NCBI GenBank assembly: GCA_032622095.1
Contig: CP136069.1
Location: 30,572,342-30,636,341, forward strand
Direction of reading: 5' to 3'
Length of the DNA: 64,000 bases
Source: Siphonodentalium dalli
Lineage: Eukaryota; Mollusca; Scaphopoda; Gadilida; Siphonodentaliidae
The notes under the pieces are model-generated. The model did no database searches, was not told the DNA's origin, and saw nothing but the letters and a program-made list of their open reading frames with translations. Each line of letters opens with the position of its first letter. Positions within the stretch are counted from its first letter, which is position 1. The position numbers were made by a program, and so were the translations under genes. Shown here in pieces: positions 81-63,563 of this stretch.

Positions 81-514
81 TTAACCCTTTACCCAACAAA
101 ACGGCCAAAAACGCCCAAATAAAGCTTCAACAGCCTAAAATATCTTCGGTCTGTCTCAATAAAACCATACAAATATGGGTATCATCGGAACCGGCTCCTT
201 GACCACATTGTGATGGTTACAGTTATGCCCTGTGCCAATGCATTCTCTTATATATGCGAGTCGACCATAGGTCGCCTCGCATATATAAGAGAATGCATTG
301 GCCTAAAAATTTTTTATAATTTTACAATTTTAGAATTTTTTGTTACATTTTTTAACAATTTTTATAATATTTTTCTACATTCTTTGACAATTTTATCATT
401 TTTAATATGTGTTAAGCCAATGCATTCTCTTATATATGCGAGGCGACCTATGGTCGACTCGCATATATAAGAGAATGCATTGGCACAGGGCCGTTCTGTT
501 GGGTAAAGGGTTAA
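81..514 (+). mobile_element. Family A1 MITE (TTAA site, piggyBac-like ends), forward
   Basis: TTAA flanks on both sides; ends CCCTTTACCCAACA and TGTTGGGTAAAGGG are inverted repeats. Inside are ~145 bp unique to one end, a ~70-bp near-perfect hairpin (GCCAATGCATTCTCTTATA arms), an AT-rich spacer with several TTTAACAATT-type runs, and the same hairpin inverted. piggyBac elements use TTAA duplications and CCC..GGG ends, so a non-autonomous piggyBac relative is the best fit. No transposase is encoded; peptides read through the hairpins are artefacts. Inserted in the TTAA of a 30-bp tandem unit. Confidence 0.9.
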
Positions 515-715
515 CACATAAGTTCAACAAACTTATTATCTGTCATATCTTTTTTTGGACTGTTGTCTGCTAATTTATCCTGAACATCCCTCCAAATGAA
601 TAATAGATCATTCCATTGTATACTTTTATAACAGAATGGGAGAATCCATTTAGTAAAGAAAGGGTCGAAAATTGTGGTTGTTGTCATCTTACTAGTTGGA
701 ACCATGAATTTATCA
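515..715 (-). repeat. Family I repeat (CCCTTTCTATACTAAATGG type)
   Basis: Read on the minus strand this matches a repeat seen elsewhere in the window: GACCCTTTCTTTACTAAATGGATT, a step 'tataaaagtata', 'ggaatgatctattattcatt', a purine-rich GACA tract and 'gttcaacaaactt'. Its start CCCTTTCT resembles family A ends, but no clean right terminus is visible. Confidence 0.55.
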
Positions 716-720
716 TACAT

Positions 721-1307
721 GTATTATGCATTTATAGTGGTGTAGCAAACTGACACTTCAATCATATATACATTATATACATGGGGTAGACATGATTATT
801 ACAATATGTACCATGCACACTTGCCGTATATAATTATACAACAATGATAATATCCTTTCTCTGTCATTACAAATACTGATATGTATACTCTAAGCTAAGT
901 ACGGTAGCTTAAATGTTCTCTCGGTTTTTAGAACTATAGGCCCAGGGTAGCATCAATTGTCTCCATCTGAGTTGCTCCATTTTGGGCATTCAAACACAGT
1001 CATGGAATCGTGAAAATATATAATATTTGAAGTACGTGTTTTCTCCCAGATAACCGCATTAAATCATATTAAGCTGTTCTCGTTGTAAAGATATTTTTAC
1101 TCATTTGTCTATGAACAGACTCTCCCAATGTGGGTTTTGTCAAATATTTTTTTTATTTTCAGTTGTTAAATAACAACTTGCTATTTTTTAGATTACGCCG
1201 GTCATTCCATTAATTTTGCCCGGGCCTGCCCAGGGTAATATGCCTATTCCACCCTAGTGTAATGAATGGATTCATCTCAAGGTGATTGAAGACCCATCTT
1301 CATGGGG
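721..1307. other. Unassigned non-coding sequence
   Basis: AT-rich and single-copy as far as I can see. No long ORF, no recognisable repeat family and no splice-bounded coding block. Confidence 0.5.
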
Positions 1308-1582
1308 TTAACCCTTCCATGACTGGAGCTTCCTGAAATTTTTTGAAAACCCTGTGCCATGCAATTAATGCACTCTCTTATGTATGCAAGTCTCACATAG
1401 GGAGCCTCGCATATTTAAGAGAATACCTTGGCCTAACAATATTACCTATAACCTTGTATTAAAGCCAGTGCATTCTCTTATATATGCGAAGCTCCCTGTG
1501 ACTGAGACTCGCATATAAGAGAATGCACTGGCACAGGATCTTTAATGCTGCACCGGCACAGCTCCCACCATGAAATCGTTAA
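1308..1582. mobile_element. Family A3 MITE (CCCTTTCATGACTGG type)
   Basis: Starts TTAACCCTTCCATGACTGGAG and ends with a diverged CATGAAATCGTTAA. It contains two degraded copies of the A-type hairpin (cattctcttatatatgcga arms) separated by 'taacaatattacctataacc'. The A3 consensus has CTTCCTGAAATTTT at one end and GCAGCATTAA..GGAGCTG at the other. It is more diverged than A1 copies. Confidence 0.8.
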
Positions 1583-1703
1583 TATCTGATAATCTGTTGT
1601 CCCTTTGAGTTAAACAAATCTGATATAAAAACCCAAATTTGCCTAGTGTATCAACCCGGTGACCCCTGATAAAGCAATTAATGCTAAAACAATTTGTCTG
1701 AAC

Positions 1704-1892
1704 TACAGTAATGCCCTAAATAATCGACTCCTTAACCACAGCAGAATTATGGGTAATTTTTCAGGATTTAGTCGGAAATATGGCTTGTTGCCATTCATCG
1801 GAAAGCTCTCAATTTAGTCGGAAATATGGCTTGTTGCCATTCATTGGAAAGCTCTCACTGAGAGCTTTCCGATGAATGGCAACAAGCCATGG
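1704..1892. mobile_element. Family C palindromic MITE, right arm truncated
   Basis: Starts TA-CAGTAATGCCCTAAATAAT and runs through CGACTCCTTAACCACAGCAG and GGATTTAGTCGGAAATATGG to the central GAAAGCTCTC. The central segment is duplicated, and the right arm stops after 'caacaagcca', so most of it is lost. Family C has TA flanks and long inverted arms, as in Tc1/mariner-derived MITEs. Confidence 0.85.
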
Positions 1893-2811
1893 GTTCCTTT
1901 AAGACACTGACTGGCAGAGTTATTGACGAGCAGGCTTAAGAGGGTTAATCTCTGGTATATTAGTTGTGCCGCTGAGTGAGTAAAGATCAACAACCCGAAT
2001 GAATTTGGAAAGCTTGATAGATGTATCTGCCAGCATTCACCTCATGGAGTGGTGTTATTGTGATTTCCGAACAATCAAATCGATATGGTTAAAAAAGGCC
2101 AGACGTGCAGCAGAATTGATTTGAGTCGTAATAACGGAAAATGCTCACACATGATGCCCCCATGCAGTCTCAAGGTTCTCATAGTAATCGCAATAAATAT
2201 TCTGCATAAACCTTCTGCGTTCACTACATAATAGATTATTCCCCCAGGTGTTGTTGCTGAGACATCTGTGAATATTTATACATTAATTTTAGGTAGCCTG
2301 ACAATTTTGCCGGAAAATTTGGCATGCCTGATAATGAGCCTTGTTCATGTTATTGATACGTACAGGAATTTAAATAGTTATACTTCGTATTAAATAAGGT
2401 TTGATGTTAGTGGAGATGACCAAGGATGTGAGATTTTTGGCCTTTAGTATATGTTTCTCTTTTTTTGTTTTTTCACTTTTTGTTGGAGTTTTCATGGGAA
2501 AAAGTGTTGAAAATTTTATAAAATATTTAATGTCAGAACTTTTAGAAATTTTGAAACTTAATAATGTACCTTCTGGTTTTGGGTCCATATAAAGCCCCAT
2601 GGAAGTTCCAAATCATATTCATGGTTTTATTTTCAAATCAATATGGTGAAATATATGGCCAGAAGTGCAGTTAGTGTAAGGGGCATGGAATGTGACTAGC
2701 AACCAAACATTTTCGTCATTTAGAATAATTTGTTGACTTTTTCTATTAATTTGGATTTTTTCAGGGGAAATTTGTATTGAAATATCTTATGACAGTTTTG
2801 AATGATTCCAA
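1893..2811. other. Unassigned non-coding sequence
   Basis: Mostly AT-rich. Short ORFs on both strands around 2370-2600 lie over a T-rich stretch and show no domain features. No repeat family recognised. Confidence 0.5.
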
Positions 2812-2945
2812 GCCTTGAAATAGTGTGTCTGTCATTTGCAGAATGAGTTCCCCAGAGGGTGAGTTTAGTGATGCAACCGCAAACCGCGGGCTAGCATCAC
2901 TAAATTCACCCTCTGGGGACCTCATTCTGCATATGCTTCATCTTT
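2812..2945. mobile_element. Family B element, left hairpin
   Basis: Begins CAAGCCTTGAAATAGTGTG and TCTGTCATTTGCAGAATGAG, then a ~45-bp arm GGGTGAGTTTAGTGATGCA.. inverted as CACTAAATTCACCCTCTGG. The distal half of the element is replaced by an A3 fragment. Confidence 0.75.
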
Positions 2946-2954
2946 TGGATAAAT

Positions 2955-3078
2955 ATGTTGGGCCAATGTATTCTCTTATATATGTGAGGCACCCTATGGG
3001 AGACTCGCATATATAAGAGAATGCATTGGCACAGGGTTTTCGCAAAATTTCAGGAAACTCAAGCCATGGAAGGTTTAA
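2955..3078. mobile_element. Family A3 fragment (one hairpin and right end)
   Basis: One A-type hairpin followed by cacagggttttcgcaaaat and CATGGAAGGTTTAA, which is the inverted A3 start. The left half is missing. Confidence 0.7.
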
Positions 3079-3116
3079 AGCCTCTGAATAATTGCCCCTC
3101 TGGCTTCAACCACCTA

Positions 3117-3306
3117 TTAACTCTTTCATGATGGGAGCTGTGCTTGTGCAGCATTAAATATCATGTGCCAGTGCATTCTCTTATATGTGAGTCTCACATA
3201 AGTAGCCTTGCATATATAAGATATATGCACTGGCTTACAAGGTCAAGGAAAATATTGTTAGGGCAATGTATTCTCTTATATATGTGAGGGTCCCTATGGG
3301 AGATTA
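3117..3306. mobile_element. Family A3 copy, reverse, right end truncated
   Basis: TTAACTCTTTCATGATGGGAG then GCAGCATTAA, a diverged hairpin, 'cttacaaggtcaagg' spacer and half of the second hairpin. It stops at ATTAAAGCCTCTGA, a phrase also present just before the element at 3075-3087, so the junction may mark a duplication. Confidence 0.65.
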
Positions 3307-3372
3307 AAGCCTCTGACAAAATTTGCTGCAGTTAATTTTCCACACCCTTTCTATAGATAAAAGTGTCGTGAC

Positions 3373-3395
3373 GGGGGGGGGGGGGGGGGGGGGGG
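3373..3395 (+). repeat. Poly-G tract of 23
   Basis: An uninterrupted run of 23 G residues. Such runs are prone to length change and can form G-quadruplexes; the exact count in a genome assembly is uncertain. Confidence 0.9.
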
Positions 3396-3547
3396 TAAAC
3401 CATATTATCTTCATGATAATGTTTTGTGTTGTGACAGAGGTAAATCTTATTTAAAACTTTTCTTTTTCTGTCTAGAAAGTGTATACGATGGGAGAGAAAT
3501 TTAGTGTCATGTAAGTAACACAGGCTGCAAGAAAATCTTAATTCAAA

Positions 3548-4313: not shown

Positions 4314-4535
4314 TTAACCCTTTCAGTGCCAGGTCCGATTTTTGTATCAACCCATATACCCTGTGCCAATGCATTCTCTTATATATGCTAGTCGACCATA
4401 GGTCGCCTCGCATATATAAGAGAATGCATTGGCCTAACAATTTTTCATCTTTTGTTATTATTTTTTACAATTTTTTACAATTTGAATAATTTTTCCTTAT
4501 TTCTTACAGGTATATTTAGTAGGTTTAGTGCCAGG
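4314..4535. mobile_element. Family A2 MITE, right end degraded
   Basis: Starts TTAACCCTTTCAGTGCCAGG and tccgatttttgtatcaaccc, then one perfect A-type hairpin and a T/A-rich core. The right end reads 'ggtttagtgccaggg' where a CCTGGCACTCAAAGGGTTAA end is expected, so the terminus is lost. Nested inside family E. Confidence 0.75.
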
Positions 4536-5864: not shown

Positions 5865-6255
5865 TTAACCCTTTACCCAACAGAAGGGCCCTGTGCCAAT
5901 GCATTCTCTTATATATGCGAGTCGACCATAGGTCGCCTCGCATATATAAGAGAATGCATTGGCTTAACACATTAAAAATTATAAAATTGTTAAAGAATGT
6001 AAGAAAAAATGGTAAAAAAATATTTTTTTTTAGGCCAATGCATTCTCTTATATATGCGAGGCGACCTATGGTCGACTCGCATATATAAGAGAATGCATTG
6101 GCACAGGGCATAACTGTAACTATCACAATGTGGTCAAGGAGCCGGTTCCAATGATATCCATATTTGTATGGTTCTATTGAGACAGACCGAAGATATTTTA
6201 GGCTGTTGAAGCTTTATTTGGCTGGTTTTGGCCGGTTTGTTGGGTAAAGGGTTAA
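5865..6255 (-). mobile_element. Family A1 MITE, reverse
   Basis: TTAA both sides. Begins CCCTTTACCCAACAGAAGGG, two intact hairpins, and ends TTTGTTGGGTAAAGGG. The asymmetric 145-bp segment (accataca/atccatatttgtatgg region) is on the right, so it lies in reverse orientation. Confidence 0.92.
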
Positions 6256-7584: not shown

Positions 7585-8335
7585 ATCAGACTTCCTTTCT
7601 GACTGTCACGAGGCTGGGTACTAGTCTGTGGTTTCTATATATAACAAGGGGTTTTCCAGCAAAAATGACGAAAACCGATCTCCCAAAAGTCAAATTTCCT
7701 ATGTGCTTTGAGAACAATTCCCGCACTAGTTTTGTAGACCATTTTTGCAAGCTACATGTACTCATCAAAATTGCAGCAAATTAGAACTCTTGTGTTGGAT
7801 TTGACATGCGTATTGTCATGATGTCATTGTCCATGTGCGTTTATACTTTTGTGTTGATAAAATAATCGGAGAACCAAAATCACACCGTTTCGCAATATTG
7901 TTCTTTGCTTCTAGTGGGAATTTCCAAACTTAAGGTACAAAATTACACAAATTTTAATCGATATTCTGTGTGTTTAACCCTTTGAGTGCCAGGGGCCAAT
8001 CTTATCGGCCCTAACCCTACAAAATAAGTCTGTTAAAGAACATAAGAATAAATTATTAAAATTGTAAAAAATTGTAAAAAAAAAAAAAAAATATTGTTAG
8101 GCCAATGCATTCTCTTATATATGCGAGGCGACCTATGGTCGACTCGCATATATCAGAGAATGCATTGGCACAGGGTATATGGGTTGATACAAAAATTGAC
8201 CTGGCACTCAAAGGGTTAACAAAGGCAGCATGTTGCTCTGCTCGTTTAGTTTATATATCTTAATATCGCAGAAGTCCACCAAATGTTGGTAAAATATCGC
8301 CGTAGCAGTGGTCATCAAGGGAGGTAAACCACTAG
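7585..8335. repeat. Family Q dispersed repeat, copy 1, split by an A2 element
   Basis: Shares long similarity with 41300-41866: 'cttcctttctgactgt', 'gcaaaaatgacgaaaaccga', 'ctatgtgctttgagaacaat', 'cgtttatacttttgtgttga', 'ggcagcatgttgct' and 'catcaagggaggtaaacc'. No conserved reading frame. The A2 element at 7974-8219 splits it. Confidence 0.8.
7974..8219 (-). mobile_element. Family A2 MITE (CCCTTTGAGTGCCAGG type), reverse
   Basis: TTAA flanks; ends CCCTTTGAGTGCCAGG and CCTGGCACTCAAAGGG are inverted. It contains a short palindrome (cttatcggcccta), a poly-A core and a single A-type hairpin. It has one hairpin where A1 has two. The paralogous locus at 41738 lacks it. Confidence 0.92.
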
Positions 8336-8734: not shown

Positions 8735-9508
8735 AGCACAGTGGGCTAACATCAACAAATTCACACTCTGGAGATCTCATTCTGCTTAGGCCTCATCTTC
8801 TGGGAAATATAAGTCTCAAATTAACATTGTTTTTAGTTACTTTTTCCCTTCTGGGAAGTTTCCATATCCCCTAATTTGAAGAAGATAAAACACATTAACG
8901 ATGTGACTAATGGGTGAATAACTGAATATCACCAACTTAACCCTTTACCCAACAAACCGGCCAAATCCGGCCAAATAAAGCTTCAACAGCCTAAAATATC
9001 TTCGGTCTGTCTCAATATAACCATACAAATATGGATATCATTGGAACCGGCTCCTTGACCACATTGTGATGGTTACAGTTATGCCCTGTGCCAATGCATT
9101 CTCTTATATATGCGAGTCGACCATAGGTCGCCTCGCATATATAAGAGAATGCATTGGCCTAAAAAAAATCTTTTTTTAACACTTTTTACCATTTTTTCTT
9201 ACATTCTTTAACAATTTTATAATTTGTAATGTGTTAAGCCAATGCATTCTCTTATATATGCGAGGCGACCTATGGTCGACTCGCATATATAAGAGAATGC
9301 ATTGGCACAGGGCCCTTCTGTTGGGTAAAGGGTTAAAAGGGGGAACTTCAATCTGATCCTACGTCTCCCATAGCATTTGAGGCCTAAGCAGAATGAGGTT
9401 CCCAGAGGGTCAATTTTATGACGCTAGCCCACATTTCAGAATCGCATCACTGAATTCACCCTCTGGGGAACTCATTCTGCAAATGTCAGACACTATAATA
9501 TCAAGGTT
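8735..9508. mobile_element. Family B element split by A1
   Basis: The left part ends '...gaatatcaccaac' and the right part resumes 'gggggaacttcaatctgatc' after the A1 copy at 8937-9336. At 15205 an uninterrupted B copy reads 'caccaacttactggggaact', which shows the unoccupied arrangement. Confidence 0.8.
8937..9336 (+). mobile_element. Family A1 MITE, forward
   Basis: TTAA flanks, CCCTTTACCCAACAAACCGG start, both hairpins intact, TGTTGGGTAAAGGG end. Nested in family B. Confidence 0.93.
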
Positions 9509-14234: not shown

Positions 14235-14634
14235 TTAACCCTTTACCCAACAAACCGGCCACAACCGGCCAAATAAAGCTTCAACAGTCTAAAATATCTT
14301 CGGTCTGTCTCAATAGAACCATACAAATATGGATATCATTGGAACCGGCTCCTTGACCACATTGTGATAGTTACAGTTATGCCCTGTGCCAATGCATTCT
14401 CTTATATATGCGAGTCGACCATAGGTCGCCTCGCATATATAAGAGAATGCATTGGCCTAAACAAAATCTTTTTTTAACACTTTTTACCATTTTTTCTTAC
14501 ATTCTTTAACAATTTTATAATTTTGAATGTGTTAAGCCAATGCATTCTCTTATATATGCGAGGCGACCTATGGTCGACTCGCATATATAAGAGAATGCAT
14601 TGGCACAGGGTCCTTCTGTTGGGTAAAGGGTTAA
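14235..14634 (+). mobile_element. Family A1 MITE, forward
   Basis: TTAA flanks, both hairpins intact, typical CCCTTTACCC and GGGTAAAGGG ends. Confidence 0.93.
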
Positions 14635-15826: not shown

Positions 15827-16482
15827 ATATGGGAGGCCAAATTCACATTTAATAACCAATTACGCTTAAGCATAATGCGGTACTCTTAAGCGTAATGCCA
15901 TTACGCTTAACCCTTTACCCAACAAACCGGCCAAATAAAGCTTCAACAGCCTAAAATATCTTCGGTCTGTCTCAATAGAACCATACAAATATGGATATCA
16001 TTGGAACCGGCTCCTTGACCACATTGTGATAGTTACAGTTATGCCCTGTGCCAATGCATTCTCTTATATATGCGAGTCGATCATAGGTCGCTTCGCATAT
16101 ATAAGAGAATGCATTGGCCTAAAAAAAATATTTTTTTAACACTTTTTACCATTTTTCTTACATTCTTTAACAATTTTATAATTTTTAATGTGTTAAGCCA
16201 ATGCATTCTCTTATATATGCGAGGCAACCTATGGTCGACTCGCATATATAAGAGAATGCATTGGCACAGGGCCCTTCTGTTGGGTAAAGGGTTAAGTGTA
16301 ATTCATATCTCCCCAGGAGCTGTAATGGATGCAACCAATTACTGATGCTAGTAACTTTTAACATATATTCACCATTATATATAAGGTAGTAAGTAAGGCC
16401 ATGAAAACCTAAGCGTGATGGTGTTGTGAGTGAGGCATTTAAGCGTATTTAGCTATTAAATGCGAATTTGGCCTCCCATATG
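15827..16482. mobile_element. Family P inverted-repeat element split by A1
   Basis: TATATGGGAGGCCAAATTCA..catttaata at the left and tattaaatgcGAATTTGGCC..TCCCATATGTA at the right are inverted. Near the left end, GCTTAAGCATAATG-type units repeat and supply the TTAA used by the A1 copy. Confidence 0.75.
15907..16295 (+). mobile_element. Family A1 MITE, forward
   Basis: TTAA flanks, ends intact; slightly shortened unique segment. Minor hairpin substitutions (gtcgatcataggtcgcttcg). Confidence 0.92.
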
Positions 16483-17643: not shown

Positions 17644-17925
17644 TTAACCCTTTCATGACAGGAGCTGTACTGGTGCAGCATTGATGATCCTGTGCCAGTG
17701 TATTCTCTTATATAATGGAGTCTCCCATAGGGAGCCTTGCATATATAGGGAGCCTTGCATATATAAGAGAATGCACTGGCTTACAAGGTCAAGGTAAATA
17801 TTGAGGCCAATGCATTCTCTTATATATGTGAGGTGCCCTATGGGCGACTTGCTTAAATATAAGAGAATGCATTGGCACAAAGTTTTCGCAAAATTTCAGG
17901 AAGCTCCAGTCATGAAAGGACTAAC
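17644..17925 (-). mobile_element. Family A3 MITE, reverse
   Basis: TTAACCCTTTCATGACAGGA, GCAGCATTGATGATCCTGTG, two diverged hairpins, 'cttacaaggtcaaggtaaat' spacer, and CCAGTCATGAAAGGACTAA. One hairpin has a duplicated 'gggagccttgcatata'. Confidence 0.82.
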
Positions 17926-24394: not shown

Positions 24395-24846
24395 TATGTT
24401 ACCCATAATTTTGCTGTGTTTAACCCTTTACCCAACAGAACGGCCCTGTGCCAATGCATTCTCTTATATATGCGAGTCGACCATAGGTCGCCTCGCATAT
24501 ATAAGAGAATGCATTGGCTTAACACATTAAAAATTATAAAATTGTTAAAGAATGTAAGAAAAAATGGTAAAAAGTGTTAAAAAAGGATTTTTTTAGGCCA
24601 ATGCATTCTCTTATATATGCGAGGCGACCTATGGTCGACTCGCATATATAAGAGAATGCATTGGCACAGGGCATAACTGTAACTATCACAATGTGGTCAA
24701 GGAGCCGGTTCCAATGATATCCATATTTGTATGGTTCTATTGAGACAGACCGAAGATATTTTAGGCTGTTGAAGCTTTATTTGGCCGGTTTTGGCCGGTT
24801 TGTTGGGTAAAGGGTTAAGGAGTTGATTATTTAGGGCATTACTCTA
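24395..24846. mobile_element. Family C right-arm remnant split by A1
   Basis: 'gttacccataattttgctgtg' + TT (24397-24420) and 'aaggagttgattatttaggg' + 'cattact' (24817-24843) are consecutive in intact family C; A1 sits in the TTAA of 'gtggTTAAggag'. Confidence 0.88.
24420..24818 (-). mobile_element. Family A1 MITE, reverse
   Basis: TTAA flanks, CCCTTTACCCAACAGAACGG start, both hairpins, and TTTGTTGGGTAAAGGG end. The target site can be read from intact family C copies. Confidence 0.95.
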
Positions 24847-27325: not shown

Positions 27326-28068
27326 TTCCGTTTCTCATTTGCAGAATGAGGTCCCCAGAGGGTGAATTTAGTGACGCTATCCCACATGGTAGGATATCAC
27401 TAAATTCACCCTCTGGGAACCTCATTCTGCATAGGCCTCAACTGCTATGGGAGACCTAGGATCAGATTGAAGTTCCCCAGTTGAAGTTGGTGATGTTCAC
27501 CCAATAGTCACCTCGATTAAGCATTTTATCTTCTGCAAATTGGGGGATATAGAAACTGAAAAGAAGTGTAAAAGTAACTAAAAACAATGTTAATTTCAAA
27601 CTAGAGATACTTCCAAGAAGATGAGGCCTAAGCAGAATGAGGTCCCCAGAGGGTGATTCAGTGATGCTACCCTGCACGGTGGGTGAACAAAACCAACTTC
27701 AACTGGGAACTTCAATCTGATCCTAGGTATTCCATAGCAGTTGAGGCCTAAGCAGAATGAGGTTCCCAGAGGGTGAATTTGGTGATGCTAGCCACAGGGT
27801 AGCATCATTAACCCTTTGAGTGCCAGGTCCGATTTTTGTATCAACCCATATACCCTGTGCCAATGCATTCTCTTATATATGCGAGTCGACCATAGGTCGC
27901 CTCGCATATATAAGAGAATGCATTGGCTTAACAATTTTTTTACAGTTTTTTACAATTTTAATATATTTTATTATATTCTTTAACAGACTTATTGTGTAGG
28001 TTTAGGGCCGATAATATCGGCCCCTGGCACTCAAAGGGTTAAATTCACCCTCTGGGTGGGGAATTGAC
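27326..28068. mobile_element. Family B element with an extra half-hairpin, split by A2
   Basis: Left hairpin from 'tcatttgcagaatgaggtcc', core phrase 'gatcagattgaagttcccc' in both directions, and a last arm 'tggtgatgctagccacaggg' broken at 'catcaTTAA' by the A2 copy; 'aaattcaccctctggg' resumes after it. Confidence 0.78.
27808..28042 (+). mobile_element. Family A2 MITE, forward
   Basis: TTAACCCTTTGAGTGCCAGG, 'tccgatttttgtatcaaccc', one perfect hairpin, AT-rich core, 'gccgataatatcggc' palindrome, and CCTGGCACTCAAAGGGTTAA. Confidence 0.93.
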
Positions 28069-28235: not shown

Positions 28236-28635
28236 TTAACCCTTTACCCAACAAACCGGCCAAAACCGGCCAAATAAAGCTTCAACAGCCTAAAATATCT
28301 TCGGTCTGTCTCAATAGAACCATACAAATATGGATATCATTGGAACCGGCTCCTTGACCACATTGTGATAGTTACAGTTATGCCCCGTGCTAATGCATTC
28401 TCTTATATATGCGAGTCGACCATAGGTCGCCTCGCATATATAAGAGAATGCATTGGCCTAAAAAAAATATTTTTTTAACACTTTTTACCATTTTTTCTTA
28501 CATTCTTTAACAATTTTATAATTTTTAATGTGTTAAGCCAATGCATTCTCTTATATATGCGAGGCGACCTATGGTCGACTCGCATATATAAGAGAATGCA
28601 TTGGCACAGGGCCCTTCTGTTGGGTAAAGGGTTAA
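28236..28635 (+). mobile_element. Family A1 MITE, forward
   Basis: TTAA flanks; both hairpins; typical ends. One substitution before the first hairpin (cccgtgctaatgc). Confidence 0.93.
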
Positions 28636-29235: not shown

Positions 29236-29492
29236 TTAACCATTTCATGACTGGTGCTTTCTGAATTTTTGCGAAAACCCTGTGCCAATGCATTATCTTA
29301 TATATGCGAGGAGCCCTATTAAGAGAATGCATTGGCATAACAATATTTACCTTGATCTTGTATTAAGTCAGTGCAATGTGCATACTCTTATATATGCAAG
29401 GCTCACTATGGGAGACTCGCATATATAAGATAATTCTATGGCACAGGGTCTTTAATGCTGCACCAGCACAGCTCCAGTCATGAAAAGGTTAA
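29236..29492. mobile_element. Family A3 MITE
   Basis: TTAACCATTTCATGACTGGT, CTTTCTGAATTTTTGCGAAA, two diverged hairpins, 'gctgcaccagcacagctcca' and GTCATGAAAAGGTTAA. Confidence 0.82.
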
Positions 29493-30526: not shown

Positions 30527-30695
30527 TTAACCCTTTCAGTGCCAAGTCCGATTTTTGTATCAACCCATATTTCCTTGATCATTTTTCAAGAGCTCTTTCC
30601 ATCAATGTATCACATTATTATAATCAATAAATTTGAAAAATGATCAAGGAAATATGGGTTGATACAAAAATCGGACTTGGCACTGAAAGGGTTAA
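30527..30695. mobile_element. Family A4 short palindromic TTAA element
   Basis: TTAACCCTTTCAGTGCCAAG, 'tccgatttttgtatcaaccc', 'atatttccttgatcattttt' inverted exactly on the right. 169 bp, no A-type hairpin; the whole element is a palindrome. Confidence 0.92.
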
Positions 30696-36274: not shown

Positions 36275-36845
36275 ATGTGGGTTAAATTACACTTTTCATC
36301 TCAATGGTTTTACACTGAAAATAATAGCTATTAACCCTTTCAGTGCCGAGTCCGATTTTTGTATTAACCCATATTTGAAAAATTATCAAGGAAATATGGG
36401 TTGATACAAAAATCAGACTTGGCACTGAAAGGGTTAAAGGTCACGCATCCTGGGTGACGGATCAATTTCATTTAATTTTCAAAACTCTCCAGAACGGAGT
36501 TAGATTTCTAAATGATCCTAGAAAAATAAATGACACGTAACGACAACAAATCGTTACTGAGGAAATTATCCAAATCAAATAATTCTGTTTTGGTAGAGCC
36601 TTAGCAGATTCAAATCTTTCACACTTTGGGTTAAATTACACTCACATTCTTGATAGTTTACGCAGACAATAATATCCATAAAAGGTCATGCATCCCGGAC
36701 GACAGATCAATTTCATTTCCTTTTTAAAACTGTCGTGAACGGAACTAGATTTCTAAATTGATCCTAGTTAAATAAATGACGCGTAACTATGACACATTCA
36801 AATCATAACTGAGGCAATTATCCAAATCAAATCGTTCTGTTTTTT
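36275..36845 (+). repeat. Direct duplication, two ~280-bp units
   Basis: 'gggttaaattacac', 'aaaggtcacgcatcctgggt', 'gacggatcaatttcattt', 'aactgaggcaattatccaaa' occur in both units (about 36275-36590 and 36625-36845). Unit 1 is interrupted by the A4 element; unit 2 shows the site before insertion. Confidence 0.85.
36331..36437. mobile_element. Family A4 short palindromic TTAA element, 107 bp
   Basis: TTAACCCTTTCAGTGCCGAG..CTTGGCACTGAAAGGGTTAA; the arms include 'tccgatttttgtattaaccc' and 'atatt'. Shorter than the copy at 30527. Confidence 0.93.
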
Positions 36846-37004
36846 TTACACAGTGTGTAGGACACCGACTTCAAATCTCAGGCGTAATTTCCATGATGCA
36901 AGTCACTTGCTAACGGGTAGTTACTTGATTCCCATTAATTCATTTGCAGGGATGTTTAGCTTAGGTTGTTTGTCATTAAATCTTCCAATAAATAGATTGC
37001 ACAT

Positions 37005-37105
37005 AGTAATGTATATAGTTATGTTGATAGTAATGTTTATAGTAATGTTTATAGTGATGTATATAGTATTGTATATAGTGATGTATATAATGATGAATAT
37101 AGAGG
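37005..37105 (+). repeat. Degenerate TAATGTATATAG repeat
   Basis: About eight 10-14-bp units such as 'tagtaatgtttatagtaatg' and 'tatagtgatgtata'. Related to the larger array at 37556-38117. Confidence 0.8.
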
Positions 37106-37405
37106 ATCTACAACTCATCCCCAGTTCACAGCGGAATTTACAAAACGAGTCCAGACCTAATTTACTGAACGACTTTTATCAATTCCACTATAAACTGGTG
37201 ACTAGTTGGAGATTCTATTTATTACATGATCCGAAACCAAGATAAAACATACTTAAATCAACAAATTGCAAGTGAAACTAACATCAGCTTCTATAAGGGC
37301 GATGACATTTCACGCAACTACATGTATGCATTGTTTGCCTGCGTAAAGAAATAGTCCCCCGATAAATAAAGACTCTTTGACGTATTTAATGGCGTAAATT
37401 TAATT
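37088..37405 (+). repeat. Family H repeat, copy 2
   Basis: 'atatagaggatctacaactc', 'agcggaatttacaaaacgag', 'aaaacatacttaaatcaaca', 'gactctttgacgtattta' parallel 42100-42390. Confidence 0.75.
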
Positions 37406-37555
37406 AAATATATTTTCAAACTCTTCATTAATTAGACAAACCGGAAGTCAAAGGTCACCTGGCACTATTTCCTGTTATGAAACAAACATTGCATATCACA
37501 ATTTATAGAACGGGTTTATTGAATGGAATAAGAGTAGGATCATCTAATAAAGTGA

Positions 37556-38117
37556 TCTATATTATGATGTATATAATGCTGTACATGTATATAATGATGT
37601 ATAGTGTTGTTTATATAGTAATGTATATATAGTGAAGTATATATAGTGATGTACATGGATATAGTGATGTATATAATGGTGTATATATAGTGTGATGTAT
37701 ATATATTGTTTATATAGTGATGTATATATAGTGAAGTATATATAGTGATGTATATAGTGATGTATATAGTGATGTATATAGTGATGTATATATAGTGATG
37801 TATATATATTGATGTATATATAATCATGTATATATAGCGATGTACATGTATATAGTGATGTATATAGTGATACATAGTGATGTATATATAGTGATGTATA
37901 TATAGCGATGTATATATTGTGATGTATATATGATGTATATATATTGTGATGTATATAGTGTGATGTATATAGTACGATGTATATATAGTGATGTATATGT
38001 AGTGATGTATAAAGTAAATGATGTATACAATGTATGTATCATGATGTATATAGTGTGATGTATATATATGATGTATATATAGTGATGTATATACCGGTAG
38101 TAAGTGATGTATATTAT
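37556..38117 (+). repeat. GATGTATATA(TAGT) minisatellite
   Basis: Over 35 units of 12-16 bp built from 'gtgatgtatatatagt', with scattered ACATGTA variants. It can be read as long ORFs of Y/I/H/T residues on the minus strand, which are artefacts. The hAT element at 38141 lies just after it. Confidence 0.9.
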
Positions 38118-39855: not shown

Positions 39856-40263
39856 TTAACCCTTTACCCAACAAAACGGCCAAAAATGCCCAAATATAGC
39901 TTCAACAGCCTAAAATATCTTCCGTCTGTCTCAATAACACCATACAAATATGGATATCATTGGAACCGGTTCATTGACCACATTGTGATGGTTTTACAGT
40001 TATGCCCTGTGCCAATGCATTCTCTTATATATGCGAGTCGACCATAGGTCGCCTCGCATATATAAGAGAATGCATTGGCCTAAAAAACACCTTTTTTTAA
40101 CAATTTTTATAATATTTTTCTACATTCTTTGACAATTTTATCATTTTTAATATGATTGTATTAAGCCAATGCATTCTCTTATATATGCGAGGCGACCTAT
40201 GGTCGACTCGCATATATAAGAGAATGCATTGGCACAGGGCCGTTCTGTTGGGTAAAGGGTTAA
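39856..40263 (+). mobile_element. Family A1 MITE, forward
   Basis: TTAA flanks; variant start AACAAAACGGCCAAAAATGC as in the first copy at 81; both hairpins intact; 'ggccgttctgttgggtaaag' end. Confidence 0.93.
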
Positions 40264-41299: not shown

Positions 41300-41866
41300 T
41301 CTACCAGAGCGCACCAGTCATGCTTCCTTTCTGACTCTGTAACCGGCTGGGTACCAGTCTGTGTTTCTATATTTAGCATGGGATTTTGCAGCAAAAATGG
41401 CGAAAAACGATCGCTCCAAAGTAAAATTTTCTATGTGCTTTGAGAACAATTCCCACAATAAAACATAATGACAGAATGGAAAATCAGAGCGGTAGTTTTG
41501 TTGACAATTTCGCAAGCTACTCTTCAAAATTGCAGCAAACTAGAACTCTTGTGTTTGACTTGCCGTTCGAGTTGTGACAATGTCGTACACATGCGTTTAT
41601 ACTTTTGTGTTGATAAAATAATAATAATAATCGGAGAACCGAATCACACTGTTTCGAAATATAGTTCTTCGGTTTTAGAGGGACTTTTCAAACATAATGT
41701 CGAAAATTTATACAAATTTTTTTCAATATTTTGTGTGCTTACCAAGGGCAGCATGTTGCTGTGTTCGCTTAGTATATATTTTAATATTGCGGAAGTCCAC
41801 CAAATGTGGGTGAAATGTCGCTGGTAGAAGCGGTCTCACAAAGTCATCAAGGGAGGTAAACCCTGC
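41300..41866. repeat. Family Q dispersed repeat, copy 2
   Basis: Partner of 7585-8335 and unoccupied by A2: 'tattttgtgtgcttaccaag' where copy 1 has the insertion. An extra 'ataataata' and ~40 bp distinguish it. Confidence 0.82.
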
Positions 41867-43997: not shown

Positions 43998-44262
43998 TTA
44001 ACACTTTGATGACTGGAGCTTCCTGAAATTTTGAGAAACCCCTGTGCCAATGCATTCTTTTATATATGCGAGTTGCCCATAGGGCACCAAGCATATATAA
44101 GAGAATGCACTGGCCTAACAATATTTACCTTGACCTTGTAAGCCAGTAGATTCTCTTATATATGCGAGGCTCACTATGGGAGACTGGCATATATAAGAAA
44201 ATGCACTGGCACACACAGACTGATATTGCTGCACCACTGCAGCTCCCATCAAGAAAGGGTTA
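43998..44262. mobile_element. Family A3 MITE
   Basis: TTAACACTTTGATGACTGGA, CTTCCTGAAATTTTGAGAAA, two hairpins, 'gcaccactgcagctcccatc' and AAGAAAGGGTTAG. The final TTAA is mutated. Confidence 0.82.
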
Positions 44263-44568
44263 GAGTAATGAAATAAGCACTTAATATGCCTTTAATGTCT
44301 AACAGAAATATGCACTTAATATGCCTTTAATGTATAACAGAAATAAGCCGTACAAATCATAAAATCTTGCAAGAGAGACAACAAATAAAGGAGTCACGAT
44401 TTTATATGGATATAATTTTTTTACAGTAAAGTTATAAAATTACACTATGGCACCCGGTGGTCAAAACTGAACTATAATAGTTATTATATAGCGTTTTCTG
44501 AAAGTAAATTCTGCTTTATATAATATCGCTCACTATAATTTTGTCAAAACGTAAAACAATGTGTGATT

Positions 44569-44811
44569 TTAACCCTTTGAGTGCCAGGTCCGATTTTTGT
44601 ATCAACCCATATACCCTGTGCCAATGCATTCTCTTATATATGCGAGTCGACCATAGGTCGCCTCGCATATATAAGAGAATGCATTGGCTTAACATTTTTT
44701 TTTTTTTTTTACAATTTTTTACAATTTTAATATATTTTATTATATTATTTAAAACACTTATTGTGTAGGTTTAGGGCCGATAATATCGGCCCCTGGCACT
44801 CAAAGGGTTAA
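44569..44811 (+). mobile_element. Family A2 MITE, forward
   Basis: TTAACCCTTTGAGTGCCAGG .. CCTGGCACTCAAAGGGTTAA; one hairpin, T-run core, 'gccgataatatcggc' palindrome. Very similar to 27808-28042. Confidence 0.94.
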
Positions 44812-46480: not shown

Positions 46481-46879
46481 TTAACCCTTTACCCAACAAA
46501 CCGGCCAAAACCGGCCAAATAAAGCTTCAACAGCCTAAATTATCTTGGGTCTGTCTCAATATAACCATACAAATATGGATATCATTGGAACCGGCTCCTT
46601 GACCACATTGTGATAGTTACAGTTAGCCCTGTGCCAATGCATTCTCTTATATATGCGAGTCGACCATAGGTCGCCTCGCATATATAAGAGAATGCATTGG
46701 CCTAAAAAAAGTCTTTTTTTAACACTTTTTACCATTTTTTTTTACATTCTTTAACAATTTTATAATTTTTAATGTGTTAAGCCAATGCATTCTCCTATAT
46801 ATGCGAGGCGACCTATGGTCGACTCGCATATATAAGAGAATGCATTGGCACAGGGCCCTTCTGTTGGGTAAAGGGTTAA
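46481..46879 (+). mobile_element. Family A1 MITE, forward, inside family B
   Basis: TTAA flanks, both hairpins (one change: ctcctatatatgcg). The B text 'gttatgggggacc' / 'ggatcagattgaagttc' is split at this point. Confidence 0.93.
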
Positions 46880-49426: not shown

Positions 49427-49825
49427 TTAACCCTTTACCCAACAAACCGGCCAGAACCGGCCAAATAAAGCTTCAACAGCCTAAAATATCTTCGGTCTGT
49501 CTCAATAGAACCATACAAATATGGATATCATTGGAACCGGCTCCTTGACCACATTGTGATAGTTACAATTAGCCCTGTGCCAATGCATTCTCTTATATAT
49601 GCGAGTCGACCATAGGTCGCCTCGCATATATAAGAGAATGCATTGGCCTAAAAAAAATCTTTTTTTAACACTTTTTACCATTTTTTCTTACATTCTTTAA
49701 CAATTTTATAATTTTTAATGTGTTAAGCCAATGCATTCTCTTATATATGCGAGGCGACCTATGGTCGACTCGCATATATAAGAGAATGCATTGGCACAGG
49801 GCTCTTCTGTTGGGTAAAGGGTTAA
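49427..49825 (+). mobile_element. Family A1 MITE, forward
   Basis: TTAA flanks, both hairpins intact, typical ends. Confidence 0.94.
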
Positions 49826-53364: not shown

Positions 53365-53739
53365 TTAACCCTTTACCCAACAGAACGGCCCTGTGCCAAT
53401 ACATTCTCTTATATATGCGAGTCGACCATAGGTCGCCTCGCATATATAAGAGAATGCATTGGCTTAACACATTAAAAATTATAAAATTGTTAAAGAATGT
53501 AAGAAAAAATGGTAAAAAGTGTTAAAAAAAGATTTTTTTTAGGCCAATGCATTCTCTTATATATGTGAGGCGACCTATGGTTTGGCACAGGGCATAACTG
53601 TCACCATCACAATGTGGTCAAGGAGCCGGTTCCAATGATATCCATATTTGTATGGTTCTATTGAGACAGACCGAAGATATTTTAGGCTGTTGAAGCTTTA
53701 TTTGGCTGGTTTTGGCCGGTTTGTTGGGTAAAGGGTTAA
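53365..53739 (-). mobile_element. Family A1 MITE, reverse, second hairpin half deleted
   Basis: TTAA flanks. The second hairpin reads 'gtgaggcgacctatggtttg' + 'gcacagggc', so its right arm is gone; all else is typical. Confidence 0.93.
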
Positions 53740-54216: not shown

Positions 54217-54435
54217 TTAACCCTTCAATGACTGGAGCTTCCTGAAATTTTTTGAAAACCCTGTGCCAATGTATTCTCTTATATATGCGAGTCTCCCGTA
54301 GGGAGCCTCAAATATATTAAGAGAATACATTGGCCTAACAATATTTACCTTGACATTGTAATCCAGTGCATTTTCTTATACTCCTTGTGGGAGACTCGCA
54401 TATATAAGAGAATGCACTGGCACATGAAAGGGTTA
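54217..54435. mobile_element. Family A3 MITE, shortened right end
   Basis: TTAACCCTTCAATGACTGGA, two hairpins (second lacks its 'tatgcgaggct' part), and CACATGAAAGGGTTAA directly after the second hairpin. Confidence 0.85.
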
Positions 54436-54641
54436 AGAACAGGATGATTTGCTTGTGTTGCATTGATGCAGATGAATGGTCTAACATTTTGTGGGGAATG
54501 CATGCTTTTGCATTTTATATTATGTACACTCAACTGGCAGATTAAACGAGCATTTATAATAAATAGTTTCCATTTTCATCACTTTTCAGGCAGCATGTTG
54601 CAAGTCACATCCATACAACATGGAAACAAGATGGGGCCTTC

Positions 54642-58950: not shown

Positions 58951-59020
58951 AGAGTCCAGTCTGGATATAGTGTGTCTGACATCTGACATACAGGCTACAA
59001 TTTGACATATCTACCTACAA

Positions 59021-60034: not shown

Positions 60035-60352
60035 AACATCGGCCTCATGATTCAAGTCCATCCTCCAGAAACCTTGTAAAATTTGGAACGGGTTCGTTCA
60101 ACTTCCGGTGAATCACCTCCAAAATTTAATCAACGTTTCTGCACTTCAGAAAGCTCGTTGGAAGCAGATCATATGATTTCGCCAGACAAGGTGATCAATA
60201 TACTATATAGAATGAGATTGAGTATGGTGTCTTTTTAATCGAGTTCCATCCAAGCTATTCTTAGTCTCCCATTAATGTTTTATATTTGCTCCGCATGGTT
60301 CCGATTTTCAATTAATTCATGCACCAGCTCAATATGATATTCATACTACGAG
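60035..60352. other. Unassigned non-coding sequence
   Basis: Nothing recognised. Confidence 0.5.
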
Positions 60353-60608
60353 CAAGCCTTGAAATAGCGTGTCTGTCATTTGCAGAATGAGGTTCCCAGA
60401 GGGTGAATTTAGTGATGCTACCCCACATAGCGGGCTAGCATCACCAAATTCACCCTCTGGGAACCTCATTCTCCTGAGGTGTAAGCAGAATGAGGTCCCC
60501 AGAGGGTGAATTTGGTGATGCTAGCCCGCTATGCAAGAGGTAGCATCACTAAATTCACCCTCTGGGGACCTGATTCTGCAAATGACAGACACGCTATTTC
60601 AAGACTTG
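60353..60608. mobile_element. Family B short element, double hairpin without core
   Basis: CAAGCCTTGAAATAGCGTGT to ACACGCTATTTCAAGACTTG; both hairpins, separated by 'ctgaggtgta'. The inner T-G pair 'tagcgtgt/acacgcta' is compensated on both ends. Confidence 0.92.
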
Positions 60609-60698
60609 ACTACGAGTTTTACCCATGTCAGGAAACGCTGTCCACAGTCTACAATAATATACATGGACATGTATGTAAGCAGGTTCACTATGGAATTA

Positions 60699-61130
60699 AG
60701 CCTTTAAATAGTGTCTAGAGTGAGGTCCCCAGAGGGTGAATTTAGTGACGTTACCCTGCACAGCAGGTTAGCAACACTAAATTCACCCTCTGTGGATCTC
60801 ATTCTGCTTAGGCCTAATCTTCTGGGAAGTATCTATCTATAGTCTCAAATTAACATTGTTTAGTTACTTTTCCCTTATGTTCAGTTTATATATCCCATAA
60901 TTTACAGAAGATAAAATTCACAATCGAGGTGACTAATGGGAGAACATGATAACTTCAATTGGGGAACTTCAATGTGATCCTCGGTCTCCCATAGAAGGTG
61001 TGGCCTCAACAGAATGAGGTTCCCAGAGGGTGAATTTGGTGATGCTAATGATAAGAGTCACTAAATTCACCCTCTGGCCTGCTCTGGCGACCTCATTCTG
61101 CAAATAACAAATACACTATTTCCAGGCTTC
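60699..61130. mobile_element. Family B element, full length (CTTGAAATAG subtype)
   Basis: AGCCTTTAAATAGTGTCTAG, left hairpin, core 'gataaaattcacaatcgagg', right hairpin with a duplicated 'ctctggc', and ACACTATTTCCAGGCTT. Confidence 0.85.
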
Positions 61131-61143
61131 AGAAGGGGGCAGT

Positions 61144-61360
61144 TACAGTAATTCCCTAAATAATCAACTCCTTAACCACAGCAGAATTATGGGTAATTTT
61201 TCAGGATTTAGTCGGAAATATGGCTTGTTGCCATTCATCGGAAAGCTCTCACTGAGAGCTTTCTGATGAATGCCAACAAGCCATATTTGTGAATAAATCC
61301 TGAAAAGTTATCCATAATTCTGCTGTGGTTAAGGAGTCGAATATTTAGGGCATTACTGTA
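61144..61360. mobile_element. Family C palindromic MITE, complete
   Basis: TA-CAGTAATTCCCTAAATAAT to ATATTTAGGGCATTACTG-TA; full arms, 'actg' centre. Confidence 0.93.
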
Positions 61361-61379
61361 TAATAGTAGGCTCTACAGC

Positions 61380-61525
61380 AGGGTCCAGTCTAGAGGTTTC
61401 TCCCAGTTTCGTTATTAGGGTGAAATGACTGTCAACAGTGAGAAGTACCAATGGCTGAAGTTCAATCTACACCCCAATATCACCCTTCTATGATCAAATA
61501 AGTATTATGTAACACAAGATCCCAG
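61380..61525 (+). repeat. Family E fragment
   Basis: 'gggtccagtctagaggtttc', 'gtgagaagtaccaatggctg', 'aagtattatgtaacacaaga' match 4120-4310. The ends are lost. Confidence 0.7.
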
Positions 61526-61559
61526 TTATAAAACCTGTGCAAAGTTTTTTTAAAAGCTT

Positions 61560-61680
61560 GGACAAAATTGTGTCCACGGACGGATGGACAGACGGACAGA
61601 CATATGGCTAGACAGACAGAAGGACAAATGGACAGATGGACGAACAAGCTGATACCAGTAAACCCCTGTGGGGGGGGGTG
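61560..61680. repeat. GACAGACGGA-type degenerate microsatellite
   Basis: 'ggacggatggacagacggac', 'agacagacagaaggacaaat' and a short G9 tract near 61671. Confidence 0.8.
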
Positions 61681-61752
61681 GTACAATTATGAAACCATGG
61701 CGTGATTAGACTGCATACTATTTTCATTAAAATACACAGGTCCTGAATGTTC

Positions 61753-62186
61753 TTAAAGGTACTCAATCAGATTAAGCACCCCCTCAATTTCTAATTATTT
61801 GGCTTCGGGGGTCAAAATATTTGATTCGATTCGAGGAACCCACCCATCAAAGCTCAGGGTGATCAGTTATCAATTTGTTAAATCTATTATTTTTCACCAC
61901 CTGGAATATTTAGTGGCCCAGTAAAAGTCAACGAGAAGACTGTCTCGGACCAAATTGAGGATGAAGATGGATAACTCTAAAATCAAGTGGATTTTTTGTG
62001 TCAGATATTTGACAAACCGGCAAAATTTCGTTGAACAAAATGTTGATACATAACAGGTTTTGGTCAATTTTATACTATAGTTGACTGTGGTCAGCATTAT
62101 TTTTGGGCAACTAATTGATTAATCGATTAAGTTGTTGTTGGAATCTGATGATATGGGGATCATCGAATCGGATTGAGTATCTTTAA
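61753..62186 (+). mobile_element. Family N element with TTAA ends, best copy
   Basis: TTAA-AGGTACTCAATCAGATT at the left and GGATTGAGTATCTTTAA at the right form ~14-bp inverted ends with TTAA on each side. The interior matches 21594-22056 and, reversed, 12341-12684. No ORF is conserved. Confidence 0.75.
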
Positions 62187-62499
62187 AATCTCAAATATTG
62201 AAAAAACTGAAAAGTGTTCGTGGATTATAATACCACACATGACTGTATAGCACTATATTAGATCCAGGAGCTCCAGAAGTGGCCAACAGCTAATTGATCA
62301 TCTGTCGAATTTATCGGGACTTTAACGACCCTCTATTCAGATCGATGGTCGGAAGCATCAGATCTCCTATGGCTAATCGATGAGAGAACGAAATCAGCTG
62401 CAACAACTCATCTTCAGAACTCTCCTCAATAGGGCAACATTTATTAGTGAGTTAGGTACACATACGTTAAGTGCGAGCGAGTGCGCTAGGTACACTATT

Positions 62500-63090
62500 A
62501 TATAACATTTCATCTTCTGTAATCTCCTAAATATGGCTGCATTTAGGATGAGTTAGGTATACATGTACATAAGTTAACCCTTTACCCAACAGAACGGCCC
62601 TAGCTGTGCCAATGCATTCTCTTATATATGCGAGTCGACCATAGGTCGCCTCGCATATATAAGAGAATGCATTGGCTTAACACATTAAAAATTATAAAAA
62701 TTTTAAAGAATGTAAGGCCAATGCATTCTCTTATATATGCGAGGCGACCTATGGTCGACTCGCATATATAAGAGAATGCATTGGCACAGGGCATAACTGT
62801 AACTATCACAATGTGGTCAAGGAGCCGGTTCCAATGATATCCATATTTGTATGGTTCTATTGAGACAGACCGAAGATATTTTAGGCTGTTGAAGCTTTAT
62901 TTGGCCGGTTTTGGCCGGTTTGTTGGGTAAAGGGTTAAGTACTGGTACACTACATGTAGGTACACTATTATACAACATTTCATCTTCAGTAATATGGCTA
63001 CATTTATCATGAGTTAGGTATACATGTACATAAGTTAAGTACTAGTACGTGTACGCTAGGTACATTATTATACAACAATTCAGTTTCACT
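62500..63090 (+). repeat. Direct duplication split by A1
   Basis: 'aacatttcatcttctgtaat', 'atggctgcatttaggatgag', 'ttaggtatacatgtacataa' then A1; the second copy reads 'aacatttcatcttcagtaat', 'ttaggtatacatgtacataa' + 'gTTAAgtactagtac' with the site empty at 63034-63037. Confidence 0.92.
62574..62938 (-). mobile_element. Family A1 MITE, reverse, shortened spacer
   Basis: TTAA flanks, both hairpins, and a spacer reduced to 'taaagaatgtaag'. 'ggccctagctgtgcc' has a small insertion near the left end. Confidence 0.95.
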
Positions 63091-63180
63091 ATTGACTCGA
63101 TCTGCATTAAATACCACATTTACCCAGGTTCAACTGGCTAAGTACATAACAGCACTAACCCCTGTCCCACCCCACCCCCT

Positions 63181-63337
63181 CAGCCTTGAAATAGTGTGTC
63201 TGATATTTCCAGAATGAGGTCCCCAGAGAGTGAATTTAGTGATCCTATCCGGCACAGCGGTCTAGCATCATCATTCTACTTAGACATCAACTGATATGGG
63301 AGATCTATGATCAGTAGTGTTGAAACGATTAGCGATT
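63181..63337. mobile_element. Family B fragment
   Basis: AGCCTTGAAATAGTGTGTCT, first arm, deleted second arm ('agcggtctagcatcatcatt'), and 'gatatgggagatctatgatc' core. Cut by A1 at 63338. Confidence 0.75.
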
Positions 63338-63563
63338 TTAACCCTTTACCCAACAGAACGGCCCTGTGCCAATGCATTCTCTTATATATGCGAGTCGACC
63401 ATAGGTCGCCTCGCATATATAAGAGAATGCATTGGCTTAACACATTAAAAATTATAAAATTGTTAAAGAATGTAAGAAAAAATGGTAAAAAGTGTTTTAG
63501 GCCAATGCATTCTCTTATATATGCGAGGCGACCTATGGTCGACTCGCATATATAAAGGGTTAA
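63338..63563 (-). mobile_element. Family A1 deletion derivative (226 bp)
   Basis: TTAA flanks and intact left end, first hairpin and spacer. The second hairpin runs to 'gactcgcatatata' and joins 'aagggttaa' directly, losing ~170 bp including the asymmetric segment. Confidence 0.93.

Follow-up and report, generated by a model that had tools for sequence, protein, structure and literature searches.

A palindromic core joined to unrelated TTAA and non-TTAA transposon ends in Siphonodentalium dalli

Families of miniature inverted-repeat transposable elements (MITEs) are classed by their ends and are usually traced to one transposase. A 64,000-nt stretch of the Siphonodentalium dalli genome (C9:30572342-30636341 of 2.23 Gb in 9 contigs; here, the window) raises the question as to how one palindromic hairpin came to lie within three families of small TTAA elements, A1, A2, and A3, whose ends differ. 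The original prediction, made from the letters of the window alone, held that a hairpin of about 70 bp occurs twice in A1, once in A2, and twice in diverged form in A3, that the termini are unrelated beyond a shared start, and that the module had either been exchanged between families or was functional. We find a shared core and unrelated ends, with a sharp joint at CCCTGT, fixed polarity, and mobility at TTAA. The same core is present in a fourth family with another target.

The hairpin is 69 bp long and consists of 27 pairs, one fixed T/C mispair, 5 pairs, and a 3-base loop (ATA/TAT), with a folding energy as single-stranded DNA of -35.4 kcal/mol versus -6.6 for shuffles. Its arm, GCCAATGCATTCTCTTATA, has 90 matches in the window at up to 3 mismatches versus 0.08 in shuffles, while TTAACCCTTT, the start common to all three families, has 45 versus 0.27 expected. 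As predicted, there are two hairpins per A1 element (in inverted orientation), one per A2 element, and two diverged ones per A3 element. Delimiting copies by their ends gave 12 complete A1 elements (365-434 bp), 3 complete hairpin-bearing A2 elements (235-246 bp), and 4 A3 elements (220-281 bp); TTAA formed part of the search pattern, so its presence at both ends of these copies is partly by construction. The elements, including two hairpin-less ones, are as follows.

81-514, plus strand: A1 element, hairpins 234-302 and 416-484
5865-6255, minus strand: A1 element, hairpins 5895-5963 and 6034-6102
8937-9336, plus strand: A1 element, hairpins 9090-9158 and 9238-9306; flanking repeat unfilled elsewhere in the window
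14235-14634, plus strand: A1 element, hairpins 14388-14456 and 14536-14604
15907-16295, plus strand: A1 element, hairpins 16050-16118 and 16197-16265
24420-24818, minus strand: A1 element, hairpins 24450-24518 and 24597-24665; flank matches unfilled repeats
28236-28635, plus strand: A1 element, hairpins 28389-28457 and 28537-28605
39856-40263, plus strand: A1 element, hairpins 40011-40079 and 40165-40233
46481-46879, plus strand: A1 element, hairpins 46633-46701 and 46781-46849; unfilled repeat copies
49427-49825, plus strand: A1 element, hairpins 49579-49647 and 49727-49795
53365-53739, minus strand: A1 element, hairpin 53395-53463; second hairpin partly deleted
62574-62938, minus strand: A1 element, hairpins 62608-62676 and 62717-62785
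63338-63563, minus strand: A1 copy ending within its second hairpin; complete hairpin 63368-63436
4314-4433, plus strand: A2 terminus (CCCTTTCAGTGCC variant), hairpin 4365-4433; far end not found
7974-8219, minus strand: A2 element, single hairpin 8101-8169; unfilled relative at 41680-41800
27808-28042, plus strand: A2 element, single hairpin 27859-27927; host repeat unfilled in other copies
44569-44811, plus strand: A2 element, single hairpin 44620-44688
17644-17924, minus strand: A3 element, diverged hairpins 17694-17780 and 17806-17876
29236-29492, plus strand: A3 element, shortened hairpin 29284-29336 plus a diverged one
43998-44263, plus strand: A3 element, hairpins 44046-44114 and 44142-44210
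54217-54436, plus strand: A3 element, hairpins 54265-54334 and 54362-54421
30527-30695, no strand assigned: hairpin-less TTAA element with A2-like ends (CCCTTTCAGTGCCAAG)
36331-36437, no strand assigned: hairpin-less TTAA element with A2-like ends

The consensus ends of A1, A2, and A3 form perfect inverted repeats of 14, 16, and 19 bp, all with CCCTTT (CCCTTTACCCAACA, CCCTTTGAGTGCCAGG, and CCCTTTCATGACTGGAGCT), and thus have the 12-19 bp repeats beginning CC[C/T]T that characterize piggyBac/TTAA MITEs. Target duplication at TTAA is evident for A1 and A2 from pairs of filled and empty sites. These come from C1:727000-926000 (L115-L121), where related tandem arrays with units of about 14.56 and 11.17 kb carry A1 and A2 insertions in some units only: the A1 copy in L116 is missing from L121 (96% identity over 124 joined bases), and the A2 copy in L121 is missing from L116 (94% over 120 bases). 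Several window copies are likewise inserted in repeats with further unfilled copies. No filled/empty pair as good as these was seen for A3. Filled and empty sites thus support insertion at TTAA, and A1 tips resemble those of two piggyBac lineages, described below. An abundant repeat around TCACTAAATTCACCCTCTGGGGACCTCATTCTGCAAATGACAG (D5, D8, D12, and D15; window 2803-63232) hosts several of the A1 and A2 insertions.

Contexts outside the window were read mostly in the first 13 Mb of a single contig. They include 40 hairpin regions on C1 (20 + 20), where loci were selected via exact arms or exact B1 tips. These C1 regions contain a fourth family, B1, which is absent from the window. It is laid out as GTGACCCGCCATATCAAATCCAGTCGTAAGTCGGGAT, a T run, ACCCTGT-hairpin, an inner part, hairpin-ACAGGGT, and the inverse end. 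Its tip, GTGACCC, has neither the TTAA duplication nor the CC[C/T]T start of piggyBac/TTAA MITEs. At 12 complete places (200-520 bp between tips), the 4-bp flanks are identical in 8 (ATAT, ATTT, AAAT, or AATT) and one base apart in the remaining 4. The mirror-image flanks of L133/L134 and L135/L139 indicate that each pair is probably a duplicate, and counting each once gives 7 of 10 identical. At L135, B1 lies within an A3 hairpin, with ATAT duplicated. The sections consulted of one account list piggyBac elements with other 4-bp duplications (PMC10813416), so that B1 could conceivably descend from a distant piggyBac, although its tip differs from CC[C/T]T.

At L131 (C1:4549480-4551400) and L132, B1-type ends, with the two hairpin arms split apart, enclose an open frame that encodes a Bcl-2 domain (PF00452, E 1.8e-13). 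Bcl-2-domain frames have at least 153 matches genome-wide (150 of 307 candidates scored); among the matches listed, many are 80-96% identical without stops, and several form head-to-head pairs about 300 bp apart. At a second Bcl-2 locus, L147, the surrounding 1.5 kb contain neither B1 ends nor arms.

The hairpin consensus is identical at 69/69 positions in A1a (20 copies), A1b (24), A2 (16), and B1 (11). Two of the 20 A1a rows (L095 and L130) are mislabelled, their flank being GGTTACGG followed by a T run, which leaves the consensus unaffected, and the script gave no label to one A1a copy (window 49579). The conserved module is wider than the hairpin. On the outer side lies CCCTGT (TCCTGT at the right end of short A3), on the inner side usually YTAACA or a variant, followed in A1 and A2 by a T-rich unit of about 33 bp; the unit is recognizable between the inner flanks of A1, A2, and B1, none of 1000 dinucleotide shuffles reaching the observed score for any of the three. 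By contrast, similarity between outer segments from different families does not exceed shuffle level (all p > 0.05; the lowest are A1a-A2R at 0.053 and A2L-B1 at 0.087), whereas those within families are alike (p <= 0.024 for A1a-A1b, A2L-A2R, and A3L-A3R, and for A3R and A3L against A3T, a long form of A3 described below). The joint between core and ends is sharp at CCCTGT. Because the outer segments of different families are at shuffle level, no continuous homology from hairpin to termini was found across the consensus ends, and the claim of unrelated termini holds. Taken together, these comparisons suggest that one core has been fitted with different ends several times, in support of the predicted exchange between families; a reading of A1 to A3 as simple subfamilies is not supported.

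The core also keeps one polarity. In the copies read, CCCTGT points to the nearer element end. Among 96 paired hairpins from the window and 45 loci, 90 could be oriented by their flanks and 6 could not; 70 of the 90 have a readable centre, and all 70 share the same polarity, the other 20 having a changed centre and being left unscored. Flipping of the hairpin through recombination was considered and set aside, given 0 inverted among the 70 scorable.

Genome-wide, the arm has 218,208 + 217,742 matches at up to one mismatch, about 436,000 in total, and CCCTGT plus the arm has 192,571 sites; reversed controls gave 0 for both. Patterns joining an end to the hairpin gave 52,298 matches for A1b, 32,190 for A3L, 18,041 for A2, and 13,434 for B1 (reversed controls all 0), or 115,963 beside the 192,571 CCCTGT-arm sites, with A1a ends left out. 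The B1 figure is a lower bound since the T run varies, and B1 tips alone number 28,043. All of these are pattern matches at stated mismatches, and ratios between them are only rough because the patterns differ in length and stringency.

How did one core acquire these ends? We favor, with a probability of about 0.7, the reading that these are small non-autonomous DNA transposons in which one common core was re-ended several times by recombination or template switching. The core consists of CCCTGT, the 69-bp palindrome, YTAACA, and T-rich units, each about 33 bp long, and is closed in A1, A3T, and B1 by the same palindrome inverted and then ACAGGG. It is joined to at least four end sets: those of A1, A2, and A3, with CCCTTT tips and a TTAA target, and that of B1, with GTGACCC tips and a 4-bp A/T-rich target. 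New combinations presumably arose a few times, through ectopic recombination or gene conversion, or when templates were switched in the course of gap repair; a perfect palindrome in some 200,000 copies is prone to such events. Each combination would then have been amplified by a transposase reading its own tips, which for A1, and probably in the other two TTAA families, would be of piggyBac type.

Of the forms read, A3T is most likely to be related to the source; its A3 ends enclose a left hairpin of A1 type together with T-rich units. It was seen in L112+L145/L148, L151, L152, and L155, with 8, 12, 5, and 3 T-rich units in L148, L151, L152, and L155, respectively; L112+L145 and L148 are one duplicated insertion, because their flanks are shared. 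Both hairpins are whole only in L112+L145/L148, the second being partly deleted in the other three. Eight places with the A3T end were fetched, of which L149, L153, and L154 are interrupted or truncated, and L150 has its right-hand end from an A2-like element. The A3T end-plus-arm pattern has 1,168 genome matches, 9 of which were read. With 3-12 counted per copy, the units of about 33 bp resemble a minisatellite inside a transposon.

Several observations weigh against repeated re-ending of one core. A3T amounts to just four independent insertions, one of them with both hairpins whole, and short A3 has no T-rich unit in its inner flank (525 of 1000 dinucleotide shuffles scored as high). The copies read include no recombination event in progress and yielded no donor in which both flanks are complete. 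The joints between core and ends bear no target duplication or other scar, and for that reason the route itself is something that we infer. A hairpin or hairpin pair without known ends occurs at L095/L130, L097, and L123/L124, an arrangement that a self-mobile core would explain as well. Finally, identity of the hairpin across families could mean constraint as well as recent exchange.

That one piggyBac-type transposase binds the hairpin as a subterminal site, the palindrome matching its dimeric C-terminal domain and being kept next to TTAA ends for that reason, we consider improbable. The TTAA target, the CCC tips, and the two inverted hairpins near both ends in A1 and A3 would suit such a site; in the part of the work consulted, CRD dimers bind palindromic subterminal sites in piggyBac and piggyBat (PMC11707139), and between hairpins of A1 type and A3 type both partners have changed at pairs 30 and 31 (and, in A3R, at pair 5), with symmetry kept. 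However, the identical hairpin lies in B1, with other tips and another target, and the CRD sites described there are about 14-19 bp, far shorter than 69 bp. PF13843 has at least 128 genome matches, many of which have open frames (116 candidates scored out of 649), and we sampled 42 piggyBac loci, 12 whole with 1.5-kb flanks and 30 by 1.5-kb flanks alone, along with 12 upstream stretches from relatives of one lineage. At up to 4 mismatches, no arm was present in 40 of the 42 loci, which is no proof of absence because in most loci at most one end was recognized and a hairpin could lie at an unread end. Arms were present in the other two loci (L051 and L053) and in one of the 12 upstream stretches (L089): that in L051 belongs to a separate A3 element ending before the TTAACCC tip of its piggyBac copy, while L053 and L089 have a single arm each, with copy ends not delimited; neither the L051 nor the L053 arm is assignable to the piggyBac element. 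In 40 tip comparisons, the A1 tip resembles those of L033/L040/L082 (shuffle p 0.001) and of L041/L049 (p 0.02, with 9 of 12 positions alike after CCCTTT). The A2R-L041 (p 0.006) and A2L-L056 (p 0.0135) scores are unconvincing given that number of comparisons, and the A3 tip shows no piggyBac likeness in the same set. Thus, the search for an autonomous relative yielded a likeness of tips for A1 but, among the candidates examined in the 42 loci, no element with both A1 ends and the hairpin. The L041/L049 copies begin directly at TTAA, and where they were compared, over as much as 9 kb, their identity is about 97-99%; the two large copies with A1-like tips have no hairpin in the 9.1 and 8.1 kb read, their right ends not being reached. 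In addition, a TTAA family with CCACAGCAG ends, without this hairpin in the copies read, has 132,015 genome ends, though it is itself nearly palindromic. The functional alternative in the original prediction, a site for a transposase or host factor, thus drew no support from the 40 arm-less loci or from this abundant hairpin-free family.

The piggyBac copies that begin directly at TTAACCCTTT and were compared to 9 kb comprise L041 with L077, L042, and L073 (C6), and L049, L050, and L074 (C9); they are either unusually large elements or carriers of large cargo. In the window, nearly palindromic TTAA elements with CCACAGCAGAATTATGGG ends (families D9, D10, and D17) lie within 1682-61370, with 132,015 genome ends.

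Could the core instead be a small mobile element in its own right, CCCTGT...ACAGGG, inserted into different hosts? The hairpins without known ends and the two hairpin-less window elements with A2-like ends (30527-30695 and 36331-36437) would suit such an element. By eye, however, no direct repeat surrounds the core in the A1, A3, or B1 consensus, the core keeps the same polarity and position with respect to the ends, and A2 has only half of it; we regard this origin as quite improbable. Least probable of all is that a single element gave rise to A1, A2, and A3 as ordinary subfamilies, with ends that drifted apart faster than the hairpin. They do have TTAACCCTTT in common, and the hairpin is less divergent than the outer part among the 12 A1 copies of the window, yet no residual similarity of outer segments survives between families, though pairs within families have it, the joint at CCCTGT is sharp, and B1 has a different tip and target. 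Moreover, the inner flank remains recognizable across A1, A2, and B1 despite varying more than the outer part (though not within A3), and drift should therefore not have erased the outer part.

If the core was re-ended repeatedly, does the hairpin itself do anything? The prediction that it is better conserved than the rest stands for the 12 complete window A1 copies, where pairwise difference is 0.0087 in the hairpin versus 0.0338 elsewhere (ratio 0.09-0.55), and is not clear for the 4 window A3 copies (0.50-1.25) or for wider sets. With copies from another contig, the ratio intervals are 0.43-1.31 for A1 (n = 21), 0-2.96 for A2 (8), 0.49-0.99 for A3 (6), and 0.22-1.28 for B1 (5), a comparison that is biased because C1 loci were chosen by exact arms or exact B1 tips. 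Private changes in 20 A1 copies number 10.3 per 1000 cells in the hairpin, a figure possibly inflated by partly deleted hairpins in this set, and 7.0 outside. General extra conservation of the hairpin is thus not robust beyond the window A1 copies.

Its symmetry tells a similar story. In 55 distinct 69-nt hairpins, 94.7% of cells are paired, and 17 cells show two-sided changes versus 4.2 in shuffles (0 of 500 as high), a count inflated by relatedness because these are mostly differences between A1-type and A3-type hairpins; they concentrate at pairs 30 and 31, with 2 cells at pair 5. The mispair T28/C42 is TC in 55/55 rows, by chance in the row at window 1464-1532, which is out of register through a compensated indel. 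Within copies, 60 of 64 changed pairs are one-sided (one A3 row of the count being out of register). For this reason resident copies are apparently not corrected arm to arm, and we reject such correction. Symmetry seems to matter, if at all, in spreading lineages and not in resident copies, judging from few events. As a guess that we hold at well below even odds, the hairpin may have been kept beside the ends through a cis role in mobilization that depends on its two-fold symmetry and not on one transposase; a single transposase for all hairpin families is unlikely because B1 would not easily be served too. Further-reaching, and in our judgment unlikely, is that the core is a portable cis module aiding any cut-and-paste element that captures it, whatever the transposase. 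Such a module would act at a common step, such as cruciform or hairpin formation, replication timing, donor-gap repair, or a host factor, and would spread across transposon superfamilies by changing ends. The idea that elements need the hairpin for success is weakened by the CCACAGCAG family with its 132,015 ends, though that family is nearly palindromic.

Searches for the hairpin elsewhere gave little. Rfam returned 0 families at the gathering level on the window and 36 weak hits on six loci, all below curated scores; 35 were microRNA precursors, as expected because the hairpin is near-perfect, and one was SNORA31. IMG/VR holds no exact match to the 27-base arm. Elsewhere in the window lie a long array of 28-bp tandem repeats (D1), from 22429 to about 24300 in the most G+C-rich stretch, and 12-bp tandem repeats of the ATGTATATAGTG type (D20) at 36985-37917.

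In this genome, a single core occurs with both TTAA and non-TTAA ends at very high copy number, which implies that internal sequence and ends have separate histories. The genome is thus suited to comparing families with and without the core, and to asking why some MITEs keep conserved palindromes and whether internal sequence aids spread.

We searched the literature for a prior account of this arrangement, and the relevant finds were the coral CMITEs and Galileo; a search with a 14-base piece of the arm gave no match. The prediction that no family with this module had been described therefore holds for the sequence, as far as the literature was searched, whereas the arrangement has a close precedent in the CMITEs. 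In the sections of that account consulted (PMC2872659, Wang et al. 2010), CMITEs are small TTAA-flanked elements whose families have different inverted repeats, several beginning CCCTTT, and a common internal region more conserved than the ends; the estimate for one coral is about 1,600 copies. A1 to A3 likewise are TTAA elements that combine differing ends with a common conserved internal region, and they too occur alongside piggyBac-like elements in the same genome and in tandem arrays. Unlike the present core, the CMITEs have a 60-bp internal consensus, unrelated to it (shuffle level, 0.46 and 0.64), the same sections describe no long palindrome and no non-TTAA family sharing the internal region, and about 1,600 copies contrast with about 436,000 arms here. 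Galileo of Drosophila mojavensis, in the portion of its description consulted (PMC3573991), includes chimeric copies with ends of different subfamilies or with mixed ends and centre, ascribed to ectopic recombination or conversion. These end/centre chimeras are a documented precedent for recombination, although they are single copies among subfamilies of one transposon, whereas here whole high-copy families with different targets are involved. piggyBac and piggyBat, as covered in the consulted part of PMC11707139, share the TTAA target, CCC-type tips, and palindromes near the ends, but theirs are short and bound by their own transposase, whereas this one spans 69 bp and also occurs in elements of another target type. 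On these comparisons, the arrangement appears to be precedented by the coral CMITEs and by chimeric Galileo copies.

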